This document shows, piece after piece, positions 3,488 to 34,034 of a stretch of 64,000 nt of DNA; within the stretch, counting starts at the first letter, position 1; every line of letters begins with the position of its first letter. The notes beneath the pieces are model-generated. The model saw only the letters and a program-made list of their open reading frames with translations. It was not told the origin of the DNA and ran no database searches. The position numbers were made by a program, and so were the translations under genes. Origin of the DNA: Chloroflexota bacterium (GTDB taxonomy: Bacteria > Chloroflexota > Limnocylindria > Limnocylindrales > CSP1-4); the NCBI GenBank assembly GCA_017853275.1, contig JAFMJV010000001.1:90286-154285 (forward strand). The letters are read 5' to 3'.

Positions 3488-4563
3488 GCACGACCGCGAT
3501 CGGCGCGGCGGGCGCAGCGAAGGTGGCTCGCCGCGCCCAGCACCGGAACCGCCCGCTCCTCCTGGGAGCGGGCGGCCTCGTCCTCCTGCTCGTCGCGGTC
3601 GCGGTGGGGATCGTCTTCGGCAACGTCCCGCTTCCGCTCGCGGATTCGGTCGCGATCATCGCCCATCGGGTCCTCGGGCTCGAGGTGCTTGCGACGTGGC
3701 CCGCCTCCACCGAGGCGATCGTCATGGAGCTGCGCCTGCCGCGCGTCCTCACGGCGCTCGTCGTGGGGACCGGGCTCGCGGTCGCCGGTGCCACCTTCCA
3801 GGGGATCCTGCGCAACCCGCTCGCCGACCCCTACGTGCTCGGTACGGCGAGCGGGGCCGCGCTCGGGGCTGCGATCGGGATCCTCATCCCCGTCCAGGTC
3901 GCGATCGTCGGCTTCGGCCTCGCGAACATCCTCGCCTTCGCGGGAGCGCTCCTCGCCGTCGCGGTCGTCTACCGCGTGGCCGGGGGTGCCGGCCCCGGCG
4001 CGATGACCACGATCCTGCTCACCGGCTACGCGGTCGGCTCGCTCCTCGCCGCCGGCCTCGCGATCGCGATGGTCCTCGCCGGCAACAACCTGCGCCAGAT
4101 CTTCTTCTACCTCCTCGGGAGCCTCGCGGATGCCTCGTGGGCGCAGCTCCTCATCGGCGGTCCGGTCATCCTCATCGGCTCGCTCCTCATCCTCCTCCGC
4201 GGGCGCGCCCTCAACGGGCTCCTCCTCGGCGATGAGGCGGCGCACCACCTGGGGATGGATGTCCGGCGCGAGCGGGCGATCCTCCTGGCGCTCGCGACGC
4301 TCGTCACGGCCGGTGCGGTCGCGCTCGCCGGGCTGATCGGGTTCGTGGGCCTGGTGGTGCCCCACATCGTCCGGCTCCTCGTGGGCCCGAATGCCCGGCT
4401 CGTCCTGCCGCTCTCCGCGATCTATGGAGCCGCCTTCCTCATCGCGGCGGACCTCGTGGCGCGCATCCCCGGCGAGCTCCCGGTGGGCGTGATGACCGCG
4501 CTCGCCGGCGCCCCGCTCTTCATCCTCCTCCTCCGGCGCGCACGCGGCGGGTACGCGCTGTGA
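3484..4563 (+). CDS. btuC: Cobalamin ABC transporter, FecCD-family permease
   Basis: A 359-residue integral membrane protein starting at GTG 3484, which overlaps the btuF stop (GTGA). It has roughly ten hydrophobic segments and the FecCD signatures: RLPRVLTALVVGTGLAVAGA near residue 80, the loop GILRNPLADPYVLG, and a C-terminal RIPGELPVGVMTALAGAPLF. As a homodimer with two BtuD subunits it would carry corrinoid delivered by BtuF across the cytoplasmic membrane. Length and motifs are normal for the family. Controlled with btuF by the riboswitch. Confidence 0.9.
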   Translation: MSTTAIGAAGAAKVARRAQHRNRPLLLGAGGLVLLLVAVAVGIVFGNVPLPLADSVAIIAHRVLGLEVLATWPASTEAIVMELRLPRVLTALVVGTGLAVAGATFQGILRNPLADPYVLGTASGAALGAAIGILIPVQVAIVGFGLANILAFAGALLAVAVVYRVAGGAGPGAMTTILLTGYAVGSLLAAGLAIAMVLAGNNLRQIFFYLLGSLADASWAQLLIGGPVILIGSLLILLRGRALNGLLLGDEAAHHLGMDVRRERAILLALATLVTAGAVALAGLIGFVGLVVPHIVRLLVGPNARLVLPLSAIYGAAFLIAADLVARIPGELPVGVMTALAGAPLFILLLRRARGGYAL

Positions 4564-5333
4564 GCGGCGTCGCGGTCCGGACCGACGGCCTCGTCCTCGA
4601 GCACGGGACGCGACGCGTCCTGGACGGCGTCTCCATCGCGATCGGCGCGGGGGAGCGGGTCGCCCTCGTCGGTCCGAACGGTGCCGGGAAGACCTCCGTC
4701 CTGCGTTGCCTGACCGGCCTCGCGACCCCGACCGCGGGGTCGGTCGAGGTCGATGGCTCCCCCCTTCCGCGGATCCCTCGCGAGCGGCTGGCGCGCCTCA
4801 TGGCCGTCGTGCCCGCCGAGGTGACGATCCCCTTCGCGATGCGCGTGGAGGAGCTCGTCGCGATCGGCCGGATCCCCCACGAGCACCGTCTCTCCGGGCT
4901 GCGTCCCGCGGACCACGCTGCGATCGAGCGGGCGATCGAGCGGGCGGGGATCGGGCACCTGCGGGGGCGCGATGTGCGGACCCTCTCGCTCGGTGAGCGC
5001 CAGCTCGTCCTCATCGCCACGGCGCTCGCCCAGGAGGGCCGGCTCCTCCTGCTGGACGAGCCGACCGTCCACCTCGACCTCCGCCACCAGGTCGGCGTCC
5101 TCCGGCTGCTCGCCGACCTCTCGGAGCAGGACGGGCTCACGGTGATCGCCGTCCTCCACGATCTCGCGCTCGTGGCCGAGCTCTTCCCGCGGGTCGTCCT
5201 CCTCGACCACGGACGGGTGATCGCGGATGGGACCCCGGCCGATGCCCTCGGGGCCGATCGGCTCCATTCCGTCTACGGCGTCGACCCGCGCTACCTGCCG
5301 CGGATCGCCGACCCCGTCTCCCTGGCCGGATGA
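4560..5333 (+). CDS. btuD: Cobalamin ABC transporter, ATP-binding protein
   Basis: A 257-residue ABC ATPase starting at GTG 4560 and overlapping the btuC stop. Walker A is GPNGAGKT (residues 38-45); the ABC signature is LSLGERQ, a normal variant of LSGGQ; Walker B is LLLLDEPT with the D-loop Leu-Asp close behind, and a switch His sits in AVLHDLALVAE. It energises BtuC. Its own stop overlaps the start of the YbaK-like gene, so all four genes are one transcription unit. Confidence 0.9.
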   Translation: MSGVAVRTDGLVLEHGTRRVLDGVSIAIGAGERVALVGPNGAGKTSVLRCLTGLATPTAGSVEVDGSPLPRIPRERLARLMAVVPAEVTIPFAMRVEELVAIGRIPHEHRLSGLRPADHAAIERAIERAGIGHLRGRDVRTLSLGERQLVLIATALAQEGRLLLLDEPTVHLDLRHQVGVLRLLADLSEQDGLTVIAVLHDLALVAELFPRVVLLDHGRVIADGTPADALGADRLHSVYGVDPRYLPRIADPVSLAG

Positions 5334-5836
5334 GCGATCCCGTCCGCGACCGTCTCGCCGCGCTCCTGGCGCCCCTCGGCGAGGGCTGGGAGATCCTCCC
5401 CTGCGACCCGGAGCTCGCGGATACCGCCGCCTTCTGCGCCGCCTACGGGGTGGCGCCGGAGGATGCCGCGAACACGCTCCTCGTGGCGGGACGGGCGGAC
5501 CCGCCGCCGTTGGCCGCGTGCCTCGTCCTTGCCACGACGCGCCTCGATGTGAACCGGGCCGTACGCGACCGCCTGGGGACGCGGAAGGCCTCCTTCGCCC
5601 CGCCCGAGCTGACGCGCGCGCTCACCGGGATGGAGCTCGGCGGGGTCACCGTCCTCGGCCTGCCGGCCGGCCTGCCGCTCTGGATCGACGCCGCGGTCAT
5701 GGGCCGCGAGCGCGTCATCATCGGCGGGGGATCGCGCAGCTGGAAGGTCCGTCTCCCGCCGGCGCTCCTGCTCCGGATCGAGGGCGCGGAGGTCGTCGAG
5801 GGGCTGGCGAACGTGTCTCCGCCCCGGGAGCCCTAG
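5330..5836 (+). CDS. YbaK/ProX-like aminoacyl-tRNA deacylase domain protein
   Basis: A 168-residue single-domain protein of the YbaK/EbsC fold, starting at ATG 5330 inside the btuD stop (ATGA). Visible family features are RLGTRKASFAPPELTRALTGM, GGVTVLGLP and the Gly-rich stretch RVIIGGGSRSWKV. YbaK-type enzymes hydrolyse mischarged tRNAs. The Lys that usually follows the first strand appears here as Asn (AANTLLVAG), so activity needs testing. Why it sits in a B12-uptake operon is unclear. Its TAG stop shares the tetranucleotide CTAG (5833-5836) with the stop of the opposing sulfatase-like gene. Confidence 0.72.
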   Translation: MSDPVRDRLAALLAPLGEGWEILPCDPELADTAAFCAAYGVAPEDAANTLLVAGRADPPPLAACLVLATTRLDVNRAVRDRLGTRKASFAPPELTRALTGMELGGVTVLGLPAGLPLWIDAAVMGRERVIIGGGSRSWKVRLPPALLLRIEGAEVVEGLANVSPPREP

Positions 5837-7302
5837 CCCGCGGGTGAGGGGAAGGGCCGGGTCGCGTCGATCGCGTCGAGCCGCTCGGTGATCTCGTCCT
5901 GGTCGTAGGGGTGGGATCCGTCGCGCGAGCGGAAGGTCCGGTCGGGAAGGAGGCCGAGCTCGGTCCCGAAGGCGCGGTCGAAGACGAGACGGAAGATGTT
6001 CACCGGCGTCATCCGCTCCCCCACGACGGGCTCGCCGGGGGTCGGGAGGTGGATCGCGAGGAGCGTCCCGAACTTGATGAGCAGCTCCTCGTCCGTCGCG
6101 CCACGCCAGTCGAAGGCACCCATCTCGTCCTCGAGGCGCTTCGGATACGGACCCTCATCCGCGGCCACGATGACGATCGGACGCTCGGCCGCGGGGACCG
6201 CGAGCAGACGGTCGAGGAAGCCGGTCAGCTGCGTCTCCGTGAAGCGGAGCTGATCCTCGTACTGCTCGGGCCCGGGCCGCTTCCGTTCCTCCTCCGTGGG
6301 ATAGGCCCCGTCCGCGCGGAAGACGTAGGGCGGGTGGGGGAGGAGGAGGTGGGCGAAGATGAAGCGCGGCCGCGCCGCGCGCTCCGTGCGCAGGTCCTCC
6401 AGGGTCGCGAGCTGGTGGAGCGCCGTCTCGCGGTGCTGCCGGTCGTTGTGGAAGATCTCGGTCTCGAGGACCGTCTCCGTGAGGGCGAGGATCGTCGTCT
6501 CCTGGAAGAGGCGCTCGAAGTCGGGCTGGGTCGTCGCTCCCTCGACGCGGTCGGCGATCGCGCTGCTCGCGGTGGGCAGGAACCACGACCCGAGCTGGAT
6601 CAGCTCGTAGCCGCGCTCGCGGAGGCGGCGGCCGACCGCGTGGTCACGGATCGCATCCACGAGCGGCGATTCGTCCGAGGACTGCGGGCCCATCCGCTCC
6701 ACGATCGGATCCAGGTAGTCCATGCCCAGCAGCGAGGCGAGGGCGAGGGTCGTCCGGTCGTAGTTCGCCCGGGCATCCGCTGCCACCGCGAAGCCCCGCT
6801 CCGCGAGGAGCCCGGGGAGGCGCGGCTCGATCCCGCCGAGCGTGGCGAGCGACCGGGTGGAGCCGTGCCGGTCGAGGACGAGCAGCCAGATATCCCGGTC
6901 GCCCGCCACCGGTGCCGGGCGGTCCGCGAGCGGGGGCGGGGAGCGGAAGAGGAGCTCCATGCTCCGCGGGCCCACGTTGATAAGGGCCAGCGCCACGAGG
7001 ATCGCGGCCACGATGTCCAGCCCGCGCGTGATCGCGTCGATCCGTCCGCGGCCCGCCCGCCACGCGACGAGGAGCGCGACGAGGACGAGGAGGGCGCCCC
7101 CGCCGAGGACCGCCGGCTCCGGCGGGATCCCCGCGGGCAGGAGCGCGACCGCGTGCCCGTAGCCGAGCCCCACGAGGAGGAGGGCGCTTGCCGGGAGCGC
7201 GCCACGCCGGCGGTCGCGGAAGACGAGCGCGCACAGGGCGCTCACCCCGAGCGCCACGAGGAGGGCCCGCACGAGCACCGGGGCGACGTCCCGTGGCGTC
7301 AC
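5833..7302 (-). CDS. Membrane-anchored sulfatase/alkaline-phosphatase-fold protein (start uncertain)
   Basis: At least 489 residues. The N-terminal part holds four or five membrane segments (to about residue 115), followed by an extracellular sulfatase-like domain: DIWLLVLDRHGST, RANYDRTTLALASLLGMDYL, FAHLLLPHPPYVF and VIVAADEGPYP. It resembles LTA-synthase/phosphoglycerol-transferase-like enzymes acting on surface glycans or lipids; the exact reaction is unknown. The nearest canonical start is the GTG at 7302, but the same frame upstream encodes another good membrane segment (AIHPLLLATWLVLFLFGANL) up to an in-frame TGA at 7420-7422 with no ATG, GTG or TTG between. The true start may be an ATC at 7395 behind AGGAG, or a frameshift is present. 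Diverges from the small DPGSGS gene. Confidence 0.78.
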   Translation of the reverse strand: MTPRDVAPVLVRALLVALGVSALCALVFRDRRRGALPASALLLVGLGYGHAVALLPAGIPPEPAVLGGGALLVLVALLVAWRAGRGRIDAITRGLDIVAAILVALALINVGPRSMELLFRSPPPLADRPAPVAGDRDIWLLVLDRHGSTRSLATLGGIEPRLPGLLAERGFAVAADARANYDRTTLALASLLGMDYLDPIVERMGPQSSDESPLVDAIRDHAVGRRLRERGYELIQLGSWFLPTASSAIADRVEGATTQPDFERLFQETTILALTETVLETEIFHNDRQHRETALHQLATLEDLRTERAARPRFIFAHLLLPHPPYVFRADGAYPTEEERKRPGPEQYEDQLRFTETQLTGFLDRLLAVPAAERPIVIVAADEGPYPKRLEDEMGAFDWRGATDEELLIKFGTLLAIHLPTPGEPVVGERMTPVNIFRLVFDRAFGTELGLLPDRTFRSRDGSHPYDQDEITERLDAIDATRPFPSPAG

Positions 7303-30218: not shown

Positions 30219-31085
30219 ATGAGCTTCAATAGCCTCTCCGACGGCCCTGCGCCCGCGAACGCCCTGACCACCACCCGCCTCAAGCGCCAGCTCGTGGAGC
30301 AGGCGATCGACGCCGCCACGGCGGCCGAGTGGGCGGAGGCCGTGAAGGTCAACGAGCGCATCCTGGAGCTCGGGCCGGACAGCGAGGCGGAGAACCGCCT
30401 CGCCAAGGCGTGCTGGGAGCTCGGTGAGCTCGCCTCCGCCCGTGAGCACTACCAGGCGGCGCTCGCCCTCGACCCCACGAACCGGATCGCGGAGCGGAAC
30501 ATCGCCCGCCTGCGCGTCCTCCTCGCCGAGGCGGGGAAGCGGACCGCTGCCGCGGGACCGGGCGCCAAGGCGCCGGTCTCGATCTTCGTGGAGGAGACCG
30601 GCAAGACCGGCTTCGCGCACCTCGTCGACCTCGCCACGCCCCGCGACCTCGCCCAGGTGAACCCCGGCGACTCCGTGGAGCTCGTCCCGGACGGTCGCCG
30701 CCTCAAGGCGATCGCGAACGGCGTCGAGATCGGCTTCGTCGAGCCGCGCGTCGCGGCCCGCCTCGTGAAGCTCATCGCCGAGGGGAACAAGTACGCGGCC
30801 GGCGTGACCAGCCTTGGCGACAAGGACGTCCGGATCATCATCCGCGAGACCTACCAGGACCCCCGGAACTACGGGAAGGTCTCGTTCCCCACCGCCGCCC
30901 GCGTCTCCGACCTCCGCCCCTACACCAAGGGGACCCTCGTCCGCGAGGAGATGGAGCTCGAGGAGGAGCTGGAGCTGGACGAGGAGGACGAGGAGATCGA
31001 GGACATCGCGTCCGTCCTCCCGTCCGAGACCACGGACGAAGAGGCGTTCGTCGCCGAGGAAGAGGACGACCTCGACGAGGCCTGA
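30219..31085 (+). CDS. TPR protein with HIRAN-like middle and acidic tail
   Basis: A 288-residue protein; ATG 30219 follows TGAGGAG. Residues about 18-110 form two or three TPR-like helical hairpins (AAEWAEAVKVNERILELGPD, ASAREHYQAALALDPTN). Residues about 125-215 (FVEPRVAARLVKLIAEGNKY, VRIIIRETY) resemble a HIRAN-type small beta domain, a tentative match. The last 50 residues are almost all Glu/Asp, a tail seen in DNA-mimic or chaperone-like proteins. It is 60 bases upstream of the 962-residue methyltransferase-like gene and probably forms a pair with it. Function unknown. Confidence 0.68.
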   Translation: MSFNSLSDGPAPANALTTTRLKRQLVEQAIDAATAAEWAEAVKVNERILELGPDSEAENRLAKACWELGELASAREHYQAALALDPTNRIAERNIARLRVLLAEAGKRTAAAGPGAKAPVSIFVEETGKTGFAHLVDLATPRDLAQVNPGDSVELVPDGRRLKAIANGVEIGFVEPRVAARLVKLIAEGNKYAAGVTSLGDKDVRIIIRETYQDPRNYGKVSFPTAARVSDLRPYTKGTLVREEMELEEELELDEEDEEIEDIASVLPSETTDEEAFVAEEEDDLDEA

Positions 31086-31145
31086 CCTCACCGGCCCTGA
31101 GCCGGAGAGGATCGGGCGCCGGACGGGTCGCCCGGAGGGAGTCCG

Positions 31146-34034
31146 ATGGCCGTCCCCCTCTCATCCCTGATCCGTCCCCGGAAGGGGCCGTCGCTCGCCG
31201 TCCTGGAACGGCTCGCCCCGCCGCCCGCCGCCGACCTCGTGGCGGCCGAGATCGAGGCGCACACCGGCCCCGGTGATCTGATCCTCGAGCTCCATGGCCG
31301 GGGTGGCTGGGTCGCCCGGAGCGCCGTGGACCGGCTCCGGCGCGCCTACACGCTGGAATCGACCGCGCTCACGGGGCTCCTCGCGGAGCTCGTCCTGCGG
31401 CCACCCGACCTGCGTCACCTCGACGCCACGATGGCGGCCCTCTCGAGCGCCTCGCGGGGTGCGGTCGGCCTCCGCGATTCGATCGAGCAGGGCTTCATCA
31501 CCTCCTGCCCCGACTGCGGGAACCCGGCCCGGGTGGAGGAGTACATCTGGGACGCGGATGACGAGCTTCCCGTCCGGCGGCTGATCCGCTGTGCGCACTG
31601 CCGGGTGCCACGCTCCGAGGCGCGCCCCGTCCCCCTCGCCGCGGAGGATCGAGCCCGGGCGCGCGCCTTCGCCGAGAGCTCCACCGCGCGCGACCAGCTC
31701 CTCGGCCGCTTCCCGGTCCCGGGCCCGGACCACCCCCTCCCGGGGGAGCTCCTCGACCTCTACCCGCCGCGCGCCCTGGATGCCATCGCCGCGCTCATCG
31801 AGCGCATCGAGGGTGACCTCCGCGCGCCCTCGATCCAGGCTGCCCTCCGCCTCGCGCTCGTCCACCTCGTCCTTCCTGCCGGCCGGCTCAACGCCTATCC
31901 GGGGCGGGTCGGCACGCTCAAGGTCTCCGGCGGCCAGCTGCGGAGCACGGGGAGCCGGCAGTACCGGGAGCGCGACCCCTGGGCGCTCTTCGAGGAAGGC
32001 TTCCGTGCCGTCCGCGCCTTCGTCCAGCGGATCGAGAGCACCTCCGGGGGCCCGCACCACGCACGCTATGGCCGGGACCTCGCCTCCCTGCTCGACGGGA
32101 GCGCGAACGTCGTGCTCGGGCACGGGAACGTGACCGACCCGCGCGTCGCGCCGCGCCTCCCTGCGGGCGCCACGGGTCGCGCGGAGAGCCGGCTCCGTCT
32201 CGTCCTCACCCAGCCACCGCTCCAGTGGAGCTCCGAGACGCTCGGCTTCGCCTACCTGGCCACGGCGCTCGCGCTCGGCTATGACGCGGCGGCGACCCTC
32301 CCCCTCGAGGCGCTCTTCGGGACGATGCCGCGGAGCGAGCACGCCTGGGATGCGGTCGCGCTGCGCCGCTCCCTCGGTGCCGTGCGCGACATCCTCGCCC
32401 CGGACGGGCGGGTCGTCCTCCTGCTCGATCCGACCGGCCCCGCGGGCCTCCTCGCCGGGGTCCTGGGCGGAGTCGGCGCGGGCTTCCGGCTCAGCGACGC
32501 GCTCCTCGCGGAGGCGGGTGAGGACCGGATCACGGGGACGATCGAGCTCCGCCCACCGGATGCGCCCGCGGACGAGACGCGCCCCTATCCGGACCTCCCC
32601 GCGGACGATCCGGACGCGCCCCTCACGACCCGGACCTTCCAGCGTGCCGTGACCGAGGCGGCGGTCGGCGCGCTCCAGGCCCGTGGCGAGCCGGCGCGCG
32701 AGGAGCGGCTCCTCGGCGAGATCCTCGTGGGGCTCGACCGGAGCGGGCATCTCCCCCGGCTCCTCGGCATGGACGAGGAGGACGGGACGCGGACGGTCCC
32801 GGCCGTGGAGCCTCCGCTCGCGGTCGCCGATCCGGTGGGCGCGGCGGCGTCCTCCCCGCAGGAGGGCAGCGCGGCGCCCCGATCCTGGCGTGACCCGGGA
32901 CGGAGCATCCGCGGGAGCATCCCCGCCGTGGCTCCCGCACCTGCATCCGCCGGCCGCACCGGAGCGCGCACGGACGGCGATGCCGGGGACGAGCCGTTCG
33001 CGGGCGTCCTCCCGCCGCCCCGCGCCCGGGAGCTGGCGGGCGCCGGCCGTCCGGAGGGGGCCGCGCCGGCGGTCGACACGGCGGCGGTCACGGGGCGTCA
33101 TCCGACCGCCCGCCGCGAGGAGGGATGGGGTCCGCTCGCCCGCGGCGCCGATCCCGTCCGCGTCGTCCAGAAGCTGATCATGGACGAGCTGCGCCGCCCG
33201 GACCATCCGCGCCTCGTGGAGCTGGAGCCGGGGCGCTGGTGGCTCCGGGACGATGCCGAGATCGCGGCTGCCCGCCCACCCCTCTCGGACCGGCTCGAGT
33301 GGGCGGTCTTCAGCCTCCTCTCCACGACGGACGGGATCACCGAGGCCGCCTTCTACGATCGTGTCGCGGGGATGTTCCGTGGCTACGACGCGCCGGACGA
33401 GGAGATCGTCCGCGCCTGCCTCGAGAGCCACGCGATCCAGGATGCGGGACCGGACGGGCTCCTGCGGGCGCTCGATCTGCTGCGCGCCCGCCACGAGGAG
33501 CATGGCGTCCTCGTGGGCCGGATCGCGGAGCTCGGGATGCGCCTCGGGATGGGGGTCTGGATCGCCCGCCGCGAGCAGCGCCGCCAGTTCCGCGGGCGGC
33601 CGCTCGGCGAGCTCCTCTCCGAGACCGAGCGGCGCGCCTATCTCCCGCTCATCCATCCCGGACCCCCGGACGTCCTCGATGCGATCGACTGCATCTGGTA
33701 CGTCCGCGGCCACGCCACCTACCTCTTCGAGGTGGAGTGGACCGCGATGCTCGATGAGCCGATCGTGCGCCGCGGTGCCCGGATCCCCACCACGCCGTCC
33801 CTCGTCCGCTTCCTCGTCATCCCGCCGGAACGGACCGAGCTCGTGCGACTCAAGCTGGAGCGGTCTCCCGTCCTCCGGCGGCGGATGGCGGAGGACAACT
33901 GGCACATCCTGAAGTCGGACCACCTTGGCCGGCTCTTCGACCTCCCCGACCCGCACCTTGCGGACCTCGAGCCGCTCCTCGGCCTGGACCCGGAGATCGA
34001 GCGCACCCAGGGCCAGCTCGCGCTCTTCGGCTGA
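31146..34034 (+). CDS. Giant degenerate DNA-methyltransferase-like / nuclease-like protein
   Basis: A 962-residue protein; a GGAGGGAG precedes the ATG. In order: a Rossmann-like segment PGDLILELHGRGGW (42-55) like the SAM motif of N-type DNA methylases; a zinc ribbon C121-x2-C124 ... C149-x2-C152; a second half-domain where the expected catalytic (D/N)PPY reads LTQPPLQ (354-360), followed by an APDGRVVLLLDP strand; a long Pro/Ala linker (about 560-660); a winged-helix-like region (about 670-780); and a C-terminal segment with D848-x13-E862-V-E864 resembling PD-(D/E)xK nuclease cores. This matches the plan of DUF1156/COG1743-like adenine methylases but with methylation motifs eroded. Function not known. 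Confidence 0.62.
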   Translation: MAVPLSSLIRPRKGPSLAVLERLAPPPAADLVAAEIEAHTGPGDLILELHGRGGWVARSAVDRLRRAYTLESTALTGLLAELVLRPPDLRHLDATMAALSSASRGAVGLRDSIEQGFITSCPDCGNPARVEEYIWDADDELPVRRLIRCAHCRVPRSEARPVPLAAEDRARARAFAESSTARDQLLGRFPVPGPDHPLPGELLDLYPPRALDAIAALIERIEGDLRAPSIQAALRLALVHLVLPAGRLNAYPGRVGTLKVSGGQLRSTGSRQYRERDPWALFEEGFRAVRAFVQRIESTSGGPHHARYGRDLASLLDGSANVVLGHGNVTDPRVAPRLPAGATGRAESRLRLVLTQPPLQWSSETLGFAYLATALALGYDAAATLPLEALFGTMPRSEHAWDAVALRRSLGAVRDILAPDGRVVLLLDPTGPAGLLAGVLGGVGAGFRLSDALLAEAGEDRITGTIELRPPDAPADETRPYPDLPADDPDAPLTTRTFQRAVTEAAVGALQARGEPAREERLLGEILVGLDRSGHLPRLLGMDEEDGTRTVPAVEPPLAVADPVGAAASSPQEGSAAPRSWRDPGRSIRGSIPAVAPAPASAGRTGARTDGDAGDEPFAGVLPPPRARELAGAGRPEGAAPAVDTAAVTGRHPTARREEGWGPLARGADPVRVVQKLIMDELRRPDHPRLVELEPGRWWLRDDAEIAAARPPLSDRLEWAVFSLLSTTDGITEAAFYDRVAGMFRGYDAPDEEIVRACLESHAIQDAGPDGLLRALDLLRARHEEHGVLVGRIAELGMRLGMGVWIARREQRRQFRGRPLGELLSETERRAYLPLIHPGPPDVLDAIDCIWYVRGHATYLFEVEWTAMLDEPIVRRGARIPTTPSLVRFLVIPPERTELVRLKLERSPVLRRRMAEDNWHILKSDHLGRLFDLPDPHLADLEPLLGLDPEIERTQGQLALFG

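Follow-up and report, generated by a model that had tools for sequence, protein, structure and literature searches.

A gene pair in Limnocylindria-type Chloroflexota

The DNA analysed here is a stretch of 64,000 nucleotides (hereafter the window; contig JAFMJV010000001.1 of assembly GCA_017853275.1, positions 90,286 to 154,285) that belongs to Limnocylindria-type Chloroflexota. It contains, in a chromosome segment of 74% GC, two neighbouring genes on the + strand, the strand to which all window coordinates below refer. The upstream gene (30219..31085, with its ATG at 30219) encodes a 288-residue protein, here termed the partner, which combines tetratricopeptide repeats (TPRs), a HIRAN fold and an acidic tail. 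The downstream gene (31146..34034), which has homologues in 58 of 61 relatives, encodes a protein of 962 residues, here termed the large protein, in which a methylase-like part is followed by a nuclease-like domain and a putative clamp-binding motif. The two genes are co-directional, are separated by about 60 bp in the list of open reading frames (ORFs) and lie where an earlier note on this DNA had placed them. Within its family the partner shows 67-82% identity, and its start context (MSF or MTF, together with the ATG) is conserved in a 32-member alignment. Pfam and NCBIfam searches with the large protein returned nothing significant. Although almost every member of an entire bacterial class has it, it matches no family of Pfam (above cut-offs), NCBIfam or PADLOC.

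The N-terminal part resembles a methylase that has lost its catalytic motif

Residues ~20-543 of the large protein (31203..32774) form a degenerate DNA-methylase-like region. A PDB search seeded by the window protein as a single sequence was uninformative, and PF01555 is not found in it. A profile built from 50 members, however, matches the RsrI methylase (1nw8, E 2.6e-4) and 2zie (E 6.4e-4) and, more weakly, PvuII, MboIIA and CcrM, the match spanning positions 25-76, i.e. the motif X/I region. PF01555 is found in 5 of the 50 members, and distant members match type II methylases (PADLOC MTase_II) and PglX. The S-adenosylmethionine (SAM) site is represented by a motif I remnant, ELHGRGGWV (residues 48-56, 31287..31313), which aligns with the DPFxGxG of relatives. 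Its GxG reads GRGG throughout the window's family and GTG in family f4, and is gone in f2, f3, f5, f10 and others. Catalytic motif IV, (D/N/S)PP(Y/F/W), is destroyed in nearly every lineage aligned: in the window it is replaced by LTQPPLQ (residues 354-360, 32205..32225), elsewhere by GQPP, QAP or P-RPN, and the version nearest to intact is the TRPP-Y of locus L085. The earlier note had likewise read TQPPL at the (D/N)PPY site. Its statement that the SAM motif is altered stands in part, as motif I is partly changed, but GRGG is conserved in the class and the loss sits in the catalytic residues of motif IV.

Between motifs I and IV lies a zinc ribbon, C121-x2-C124...C149-x2-C152 (31506..31601), formed by the four cysteines that the earlier note had named. 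None of the four varies among 50 homologues, even at ~20% identity, and in a second set they are found in 67-69 of 70 rows, the remaining rows being mostly gaps. Judged from its sequence, the N-terminal part is thus a pseudo-methylase in which the zinc ribbon has been conserved; the methylase profile matches, the loss of motif IV and the invariant cysteines bear out the inactive layout proposed before. With amino-methyltransferases in which motif I precedes motif IV (PglX-like and type II enzymes) it shares remnants of methylase sequence, the motif order and an intervening zinc ribbon. The large protein differs from these in having lost (D/N/S)PP(Y/F/W) family-wide and in being fused to a winged helix and a nuclease-like domain. 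A search of the literature on pseudo-methyltransferases found nothing relevant. The linker that had been proposed between the methylase-like and C-terminal parts is present as a Pro/Ala/Gly-rich segment (residues 545-668, 32778..33149), which in relatives separates the two segments that match.

The C-terminal part contains a winged helix and a PD-(D/E)xK-like domain

We modelled the C-terminal part of the 962-residue protein with AlphaFold2 (AF2), which returned a confident prediction (predicted local distance difference test, pLDDT, 93) comprising a winged helix and then elements in the order alpha-beta-beta-beta-alpha-beta. The winged helix (residues 713-776, 33282..33473; helices 42-56, 62-72 and 81-91 of the model, plus strands) retrieves cullin and ORC2 winged-helix domains in Foldseek (7oni, prob 0.91). 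It is followed by a PD-(D/E)xK-like nuclease domain (residues 779-931, 33480..33938), identified by AF2, phmmer and Foldseek together. In the predicted core, D848 (33687-33689) directly precedes strand 2, and E862 (33729-33731) and E864 (33735-33737) close strand 3, together delimiting an acidic site at 33687..33737. The model and alignments therefore agree with the earlier note on the winged-helix-like part, on the three acidic residues and on the type of fold. In PD-(D/E)xK enzymes, Glu in place of the Lys is also found in BamHI. Within the class the three residues are retained in 58-59 of the 59 complete rows, at ~50% overall identity, and such near-perfect conservation suggests use. They are also kept in 34 of the 50 rows of the tree set, one Asp-for-Glu change being counted as kept, and the domain tree places them across f1, f4 (one Asp for Glu), f15, f23 and f33.

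FokI, Nt.BspD6I, Can2, Card1 and SfsA are among the Foldseek matches of this domain, all with E of 0.1 or worse and not significant. Kinship at the sequence level is clearer than the structural match: in phmmer the large protein matches a 375-residue EVE protein (E 4.5e-10), the corresponding domain of which matches PADLOC REase_II (E 3.4e-15). ORFs of ~370 codons in other Chloroflexota join an EVE domain (shown for L075:4308-5435 and L076:4995-6113) to a homologous nuclease-like domain with the signature D...FEIE, and ORFs of similar size occur in L077-L079. These proteins have EVE, a modified-base reader, where the large protein has its pseudo-methylase, and they lack the C-terminal clamp motif. 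They are candidate modified-base-dependent restriction enzymes.

The large protein ends in a putative sliding-clamp-binding motif

The strongest clue to function is one that the earlier note had missed. Residues 957-961 (34014..34028) read QLALF, a pentapeptide of the type that binds the beta sliding clamp, for which the C-terminal consensus is QL(S/D)LF (PMC9690074). Conservation is family-wide, with QLPLF, QLGLF, QLSLF, QMPLF, QLTMF and QMMMF as variants in relatives. A further 70 rows were sampled by an independent route, from genomes that partly overlap those of the first set, and all 56 complete ones among them have Q[LMI]x[LM]F at the C-terminus. A strict pattern confined to the last 14 residues is matched by 49 of 73 rows family-wide, and many of the rows failing it show QTTLF, QLDL or QLxFxW, or have the motif slightly further in. 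By comparison, none of 488 neighbouring genes, the background used here in place of the proteome, has a clamp-type motif in its last 15 residues. In the same genome, DinB carries QLGLF and DnaE carries QVSLF. The terminus bearing the motif (residues 952-961) is modelled with a pLDDT of ~61, in keeping with a flexible end. Clamp binding is, on these alignments, the best-supported single function that can be predicted for the large protein.

The partner combines TPRs, a HIRAN fold and an acidic tail

The helical part of the partner (residues 13-105, 30255..30533) carries two TPRs (Pfam TPR_2, 5.3e-07; AF2 helices over residues 13-105). Residues 128-212 (30600..30854) are predicted by AF2 to adopt a HIRAN fold (pLDDT ~83-94). 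The best solved match in Foldseek is the HIRAN domain of human HLTF (4s0n, prob 1.00, E 1.4e-3, target TM 0.60), and the three HLTF structures 4s0n, 4xzg and 4xzf all give prob 1.00 with target TM of 0.56-0.63. The Pfam HIRAN model was not among the 25 of 39 families listed for 32 partner members at E up to 5, where TPR models dominate. In HLTF, the HIRAN domain binds DNA ends at forks and is fused to a helicase, whereas in the partner the similar predicted fold is fused to TPRs and an acidic tail. Prokaryotic HIRAN domains have been described as uncharacterised, and their eukaryotic homologues bind single-stranded DNA (PMC11090510). The tail (residues 240-288, 30936..31082) is predicted to be disordered (pLDDT 38-49) and is 53% Asp/Glu, with one basic residue in 49. 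All three parts had been recognised in the earlier note from the letters of the sequence.

A sample of 301 Chloroflexota genomes contains the partner in 222, and across Chloroflexota loci it often adjoins miaB. In three loci of other Chloroflexota (L119, L136 and L137) gyrA directly adjoins the TPR-HIRAN gene, hinting at a tie with DNA topology or replication.

The pair is constant within the class and separates outside it

Among 28 high-quality genomes of the class, 26 have the large gene and 27 the partner. We retrieved paired loci by the partner's alignment alone (n = 80); a related-locus search seeded with the large window protein alone returned none. The large gene lies downstream on the same strand in 77 of the 80, in some of them with one to a few genes in between and at distances of up to ~4.7 kb, and in the other three the contig ends within 121, 493 and 201 bp. 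Long members elsewhere in the phylum belong to families f7, f10, f15, f23, f33, f40, f66 and f72. Many weaker hits in the phylum cover only profile positions ~20-100 and are probably ordinary methylases. The earlier proposal of a two-gene system thus holds within the class, where co-directional pairing is constant. Outside the class each gene occurs alone, and we therefore rejected an obligate two-gene system.

Repair genes recur next to these loci. At f1 and f4 loci, PolX (NF006375, 470 bits) precedes the partner or the large gene by two genes, which is not the case in the window. In f33 the large gene is followed within ~10 bp by genes for an MrfA-type helicase (MZB, DEAD) and an MrfB-type RNase_H_2+TPR protein, the three forming a tight same-strand cluster (L083:2202-8258). 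In Bacillus subtilis, mrfA-mrfB repair mitomycin damage (PMC11194089). MrfB resembles the module described here in also joining a nuclease to TPRs, but MrfA and MrfB are other enzymes. Linkage was not seen within the window's class, where an MrfA-type helicase is present but on other contigs.

Known mismatch-repair genes appear to be missing from the class

We searched 61 genomes of the class with hidden Markov models (HMMs) for mismatch-repair proteins. The absences, in draft metagenome-assembled genomes, rest on HMM cut-offs. Neither MutS1 nor MutL exceeded the cut-off in any of the 61, the controls doing so in 11 of 14 cases for each. Residual MutS matches are confined to roughly positions 480-820 of the model, the pattern to be expected of MutS2 and other MutS-like ATPases. 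NucS was over the cut-off in four of the 61, in one of them clearly. The whole class thus appears to be without known mismatch repair. The two window proteins themselves match none of the MutS, MutL and NucS models of Pfam and NCBIfam. In the 1.1-Mb genomes of f2 (G037-G055), which are probably Limnocylindraceae, the zinc-binding domain of MrfA is found in 0 of 19. Its absence, together with the loss of the acidic triad in the f2 members aligned, is in line with the published loss of repair genes in Limnocylindraceae, which are reported to have lost base-excision repair and are proposed hypermutators (PMC13212565).

A proposed clamp-tethered repair nuclease and its alternatives

Taking the clamp motif, the nuclease fold with its acidic site, the HIRAN partner, the pairing, the PolX, MrfAB and gyrA contexts and the near-universality together, we read the pair, with moderate confidence, as a replication-coupled DNA-repair nuclease module that is chromosomal, inherited vertically and equipped with a HIRAN-type end sensor. 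Through its C-terminal QLxLF the large protein would attach itself, behind the fork, to the beta sliding clamp, and the dead methylase fold, zinc ribbon and winged helix would then grip and inspect duplex DNA. The PD-(D/E)xK-like domain, with D848, E862 and E864 and a Glu replacing the Lys, would incise the DNA in a metal-dependent manner. The TPR-HIRAN partner, presumed to form a complex with the large protein, would use its HIRAN fold to recognise a 3' end or a fork structure, and would present or license the nuclease, its acidic tail possibly serving as an electrostatic gate. The recurring repair context (PolX, mrfA-mrfB) supports the part of the earlier note that suggested a DNA-repair device. 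What emerges would be a dead DNA methylase recycled as a probable DNA reader, to which a nuclease-like domain has been added and which is apparently plugged into the replication clamp.

Several observations weigh against this reading. At position 862, f3 and f5 have Q or K and f7 has Q. The f10/f40/f66/f72 clade has lost the triad, as have the aligned members of the 1.1-Mb f2 genomes; cleavage can therefore not account for the entire function in every lineage. The conservation of the acidic residues, which the earlier note had wanted checked, is thus near-perfect in the window's family but changed or lost in some others. Foldseek matches of the nuclease domain to solved structures are weak, with a best E of 0.011. 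Families f10 and f7 keep the large gene without the partner, and in most families of Chloroflexota the partner occurs alone.

No features are retained as widely as the zinc ribbon and the clamp motif, while methylase residues and, in several lineages, nuclease residues erode; this would also fit a mainly non-catalytic, clamp-bound scaffold in which a pseudo-methylase and a pseudo-nuclease organise replication or repair proteins and cleavage is secondary or absent. The near-perfect retention of D848, E862 and E864 in the window's family argues the other way, and we regard the scaffold as possible but unlikely. The missing MutS1 and MutL and the rarity of NucS in the class favour another idea, namely that the large protein is an alternative mismatch-repair endonuclease filling the place of MutS-MutL or NucS, guided by the clamp to the newly made strand, with the HIRAN partner reading nicks or 3' ends to tell the strands apart. 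EndoMS/NucS is likewise a repair endonuclease with a C-terminal clamp motif, in its case one required for activity (PMC8228993), and published work leaves room for alternative pathways as yet unknown (PMC5290159). The f2 members with an eroded triad, from those MrfA-less, supposedly hypermutating genomes, point the same way. The clamp motif of the large protein is a predicted one, however, and the protein shows no sequence match to EndoMS/NucS, is much larger, and has a pseudo-methylase, a zinc ribbon, an ExE motif and a HIRAN partner. Clamp-bound, strand-directed incision is a plausible logic in common with MutL/MutS, but there is no homology to either gene of the pair. Nothing in the data points to mismatch recognition, and families f7, f10 and f40 hold MutS1 together with a family member, with MutS1 matches in f15, f23 and f33 as well. 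The co-occurrence of both genes outside the class argues against a simple replacement and weakens an exclusive one, and we judge mismatch repair to be improbable here. Slightly less probable again is the broader proposition that Limnocylindria-type Chloroflexota correct replication errors by a third, unrelated mismatch-repair system, in which a clamp-tethered pseudo-methylase nuclease would act together with TPR-HIRAN as a sensor of strand ends, and the decay of which would add to the high mutation pressure in the 1.1-Mb lineage. How mutation is controlled in bacteria without MutS-MutL or NucS is a standing question, and the large protein, coming from a class without canonical mismatch repair, makes it directly testable.

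The other half of the earlier note, a defence function, fared worse. The methylase and nuclease parts do resemble restriction-modification proteins, and the nuclease domain has relatives linked to EVE, so that a dead methylase could be imagined to read modified or unmodified DNA while the nuclease cuts invaders. Against such an anti-phage or restriction device stand the near-universal, vertical, single-locus presence in the class, the housekeeping neighbours in place of defence genes and the strongly conserved clamp motif. Neither window protein was matched in PADLOC, and searches of plasmids, phages and viral contigs found no relatives. On this distribution and these searches we rejected the defence reading as very unlikely. 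Least probable of all, and by our estimate a far-fetched option, is a factor for nucleic-acid modification, SAM sensing or RNA processing unrelated to repair. SAM binding is still conceivable, given that the class retains GRGG in motif I, and the partner adjoins miaB in many loci, but the clamp motif, the HIRAN fold and the linkage to PolX and MrfAB all speak against such a factor.

Neighbouring genes and other observations

In the window, the pair is flanked upstream by genes for LytR-CpsA-Psr and GGDEF proteins and downstream by one for a DUF885 protein, which are housekeeping neighbours by their Pfam matches; fabH-like and fabG-like ORFs lie farther upstream, as read from the ORF list. Elsewhere, a 1045-codon ORF (L080:4344-7481) joins an N6/N4-methylase-like part to an iron-sulfur/NAD-binding part of the dihydroorotate-dehydrogenase-B type; the fusion may be genuine or may have arisen in assembly. 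Finally, the window's contig carries a 465-codon frame with a weak IMS-type polymerase match and, nearby, a second DnaE (G000:C11:1413-1802 and 4056-7295), which together look like an ImuB/DnaE2 mutagenesis cassette.

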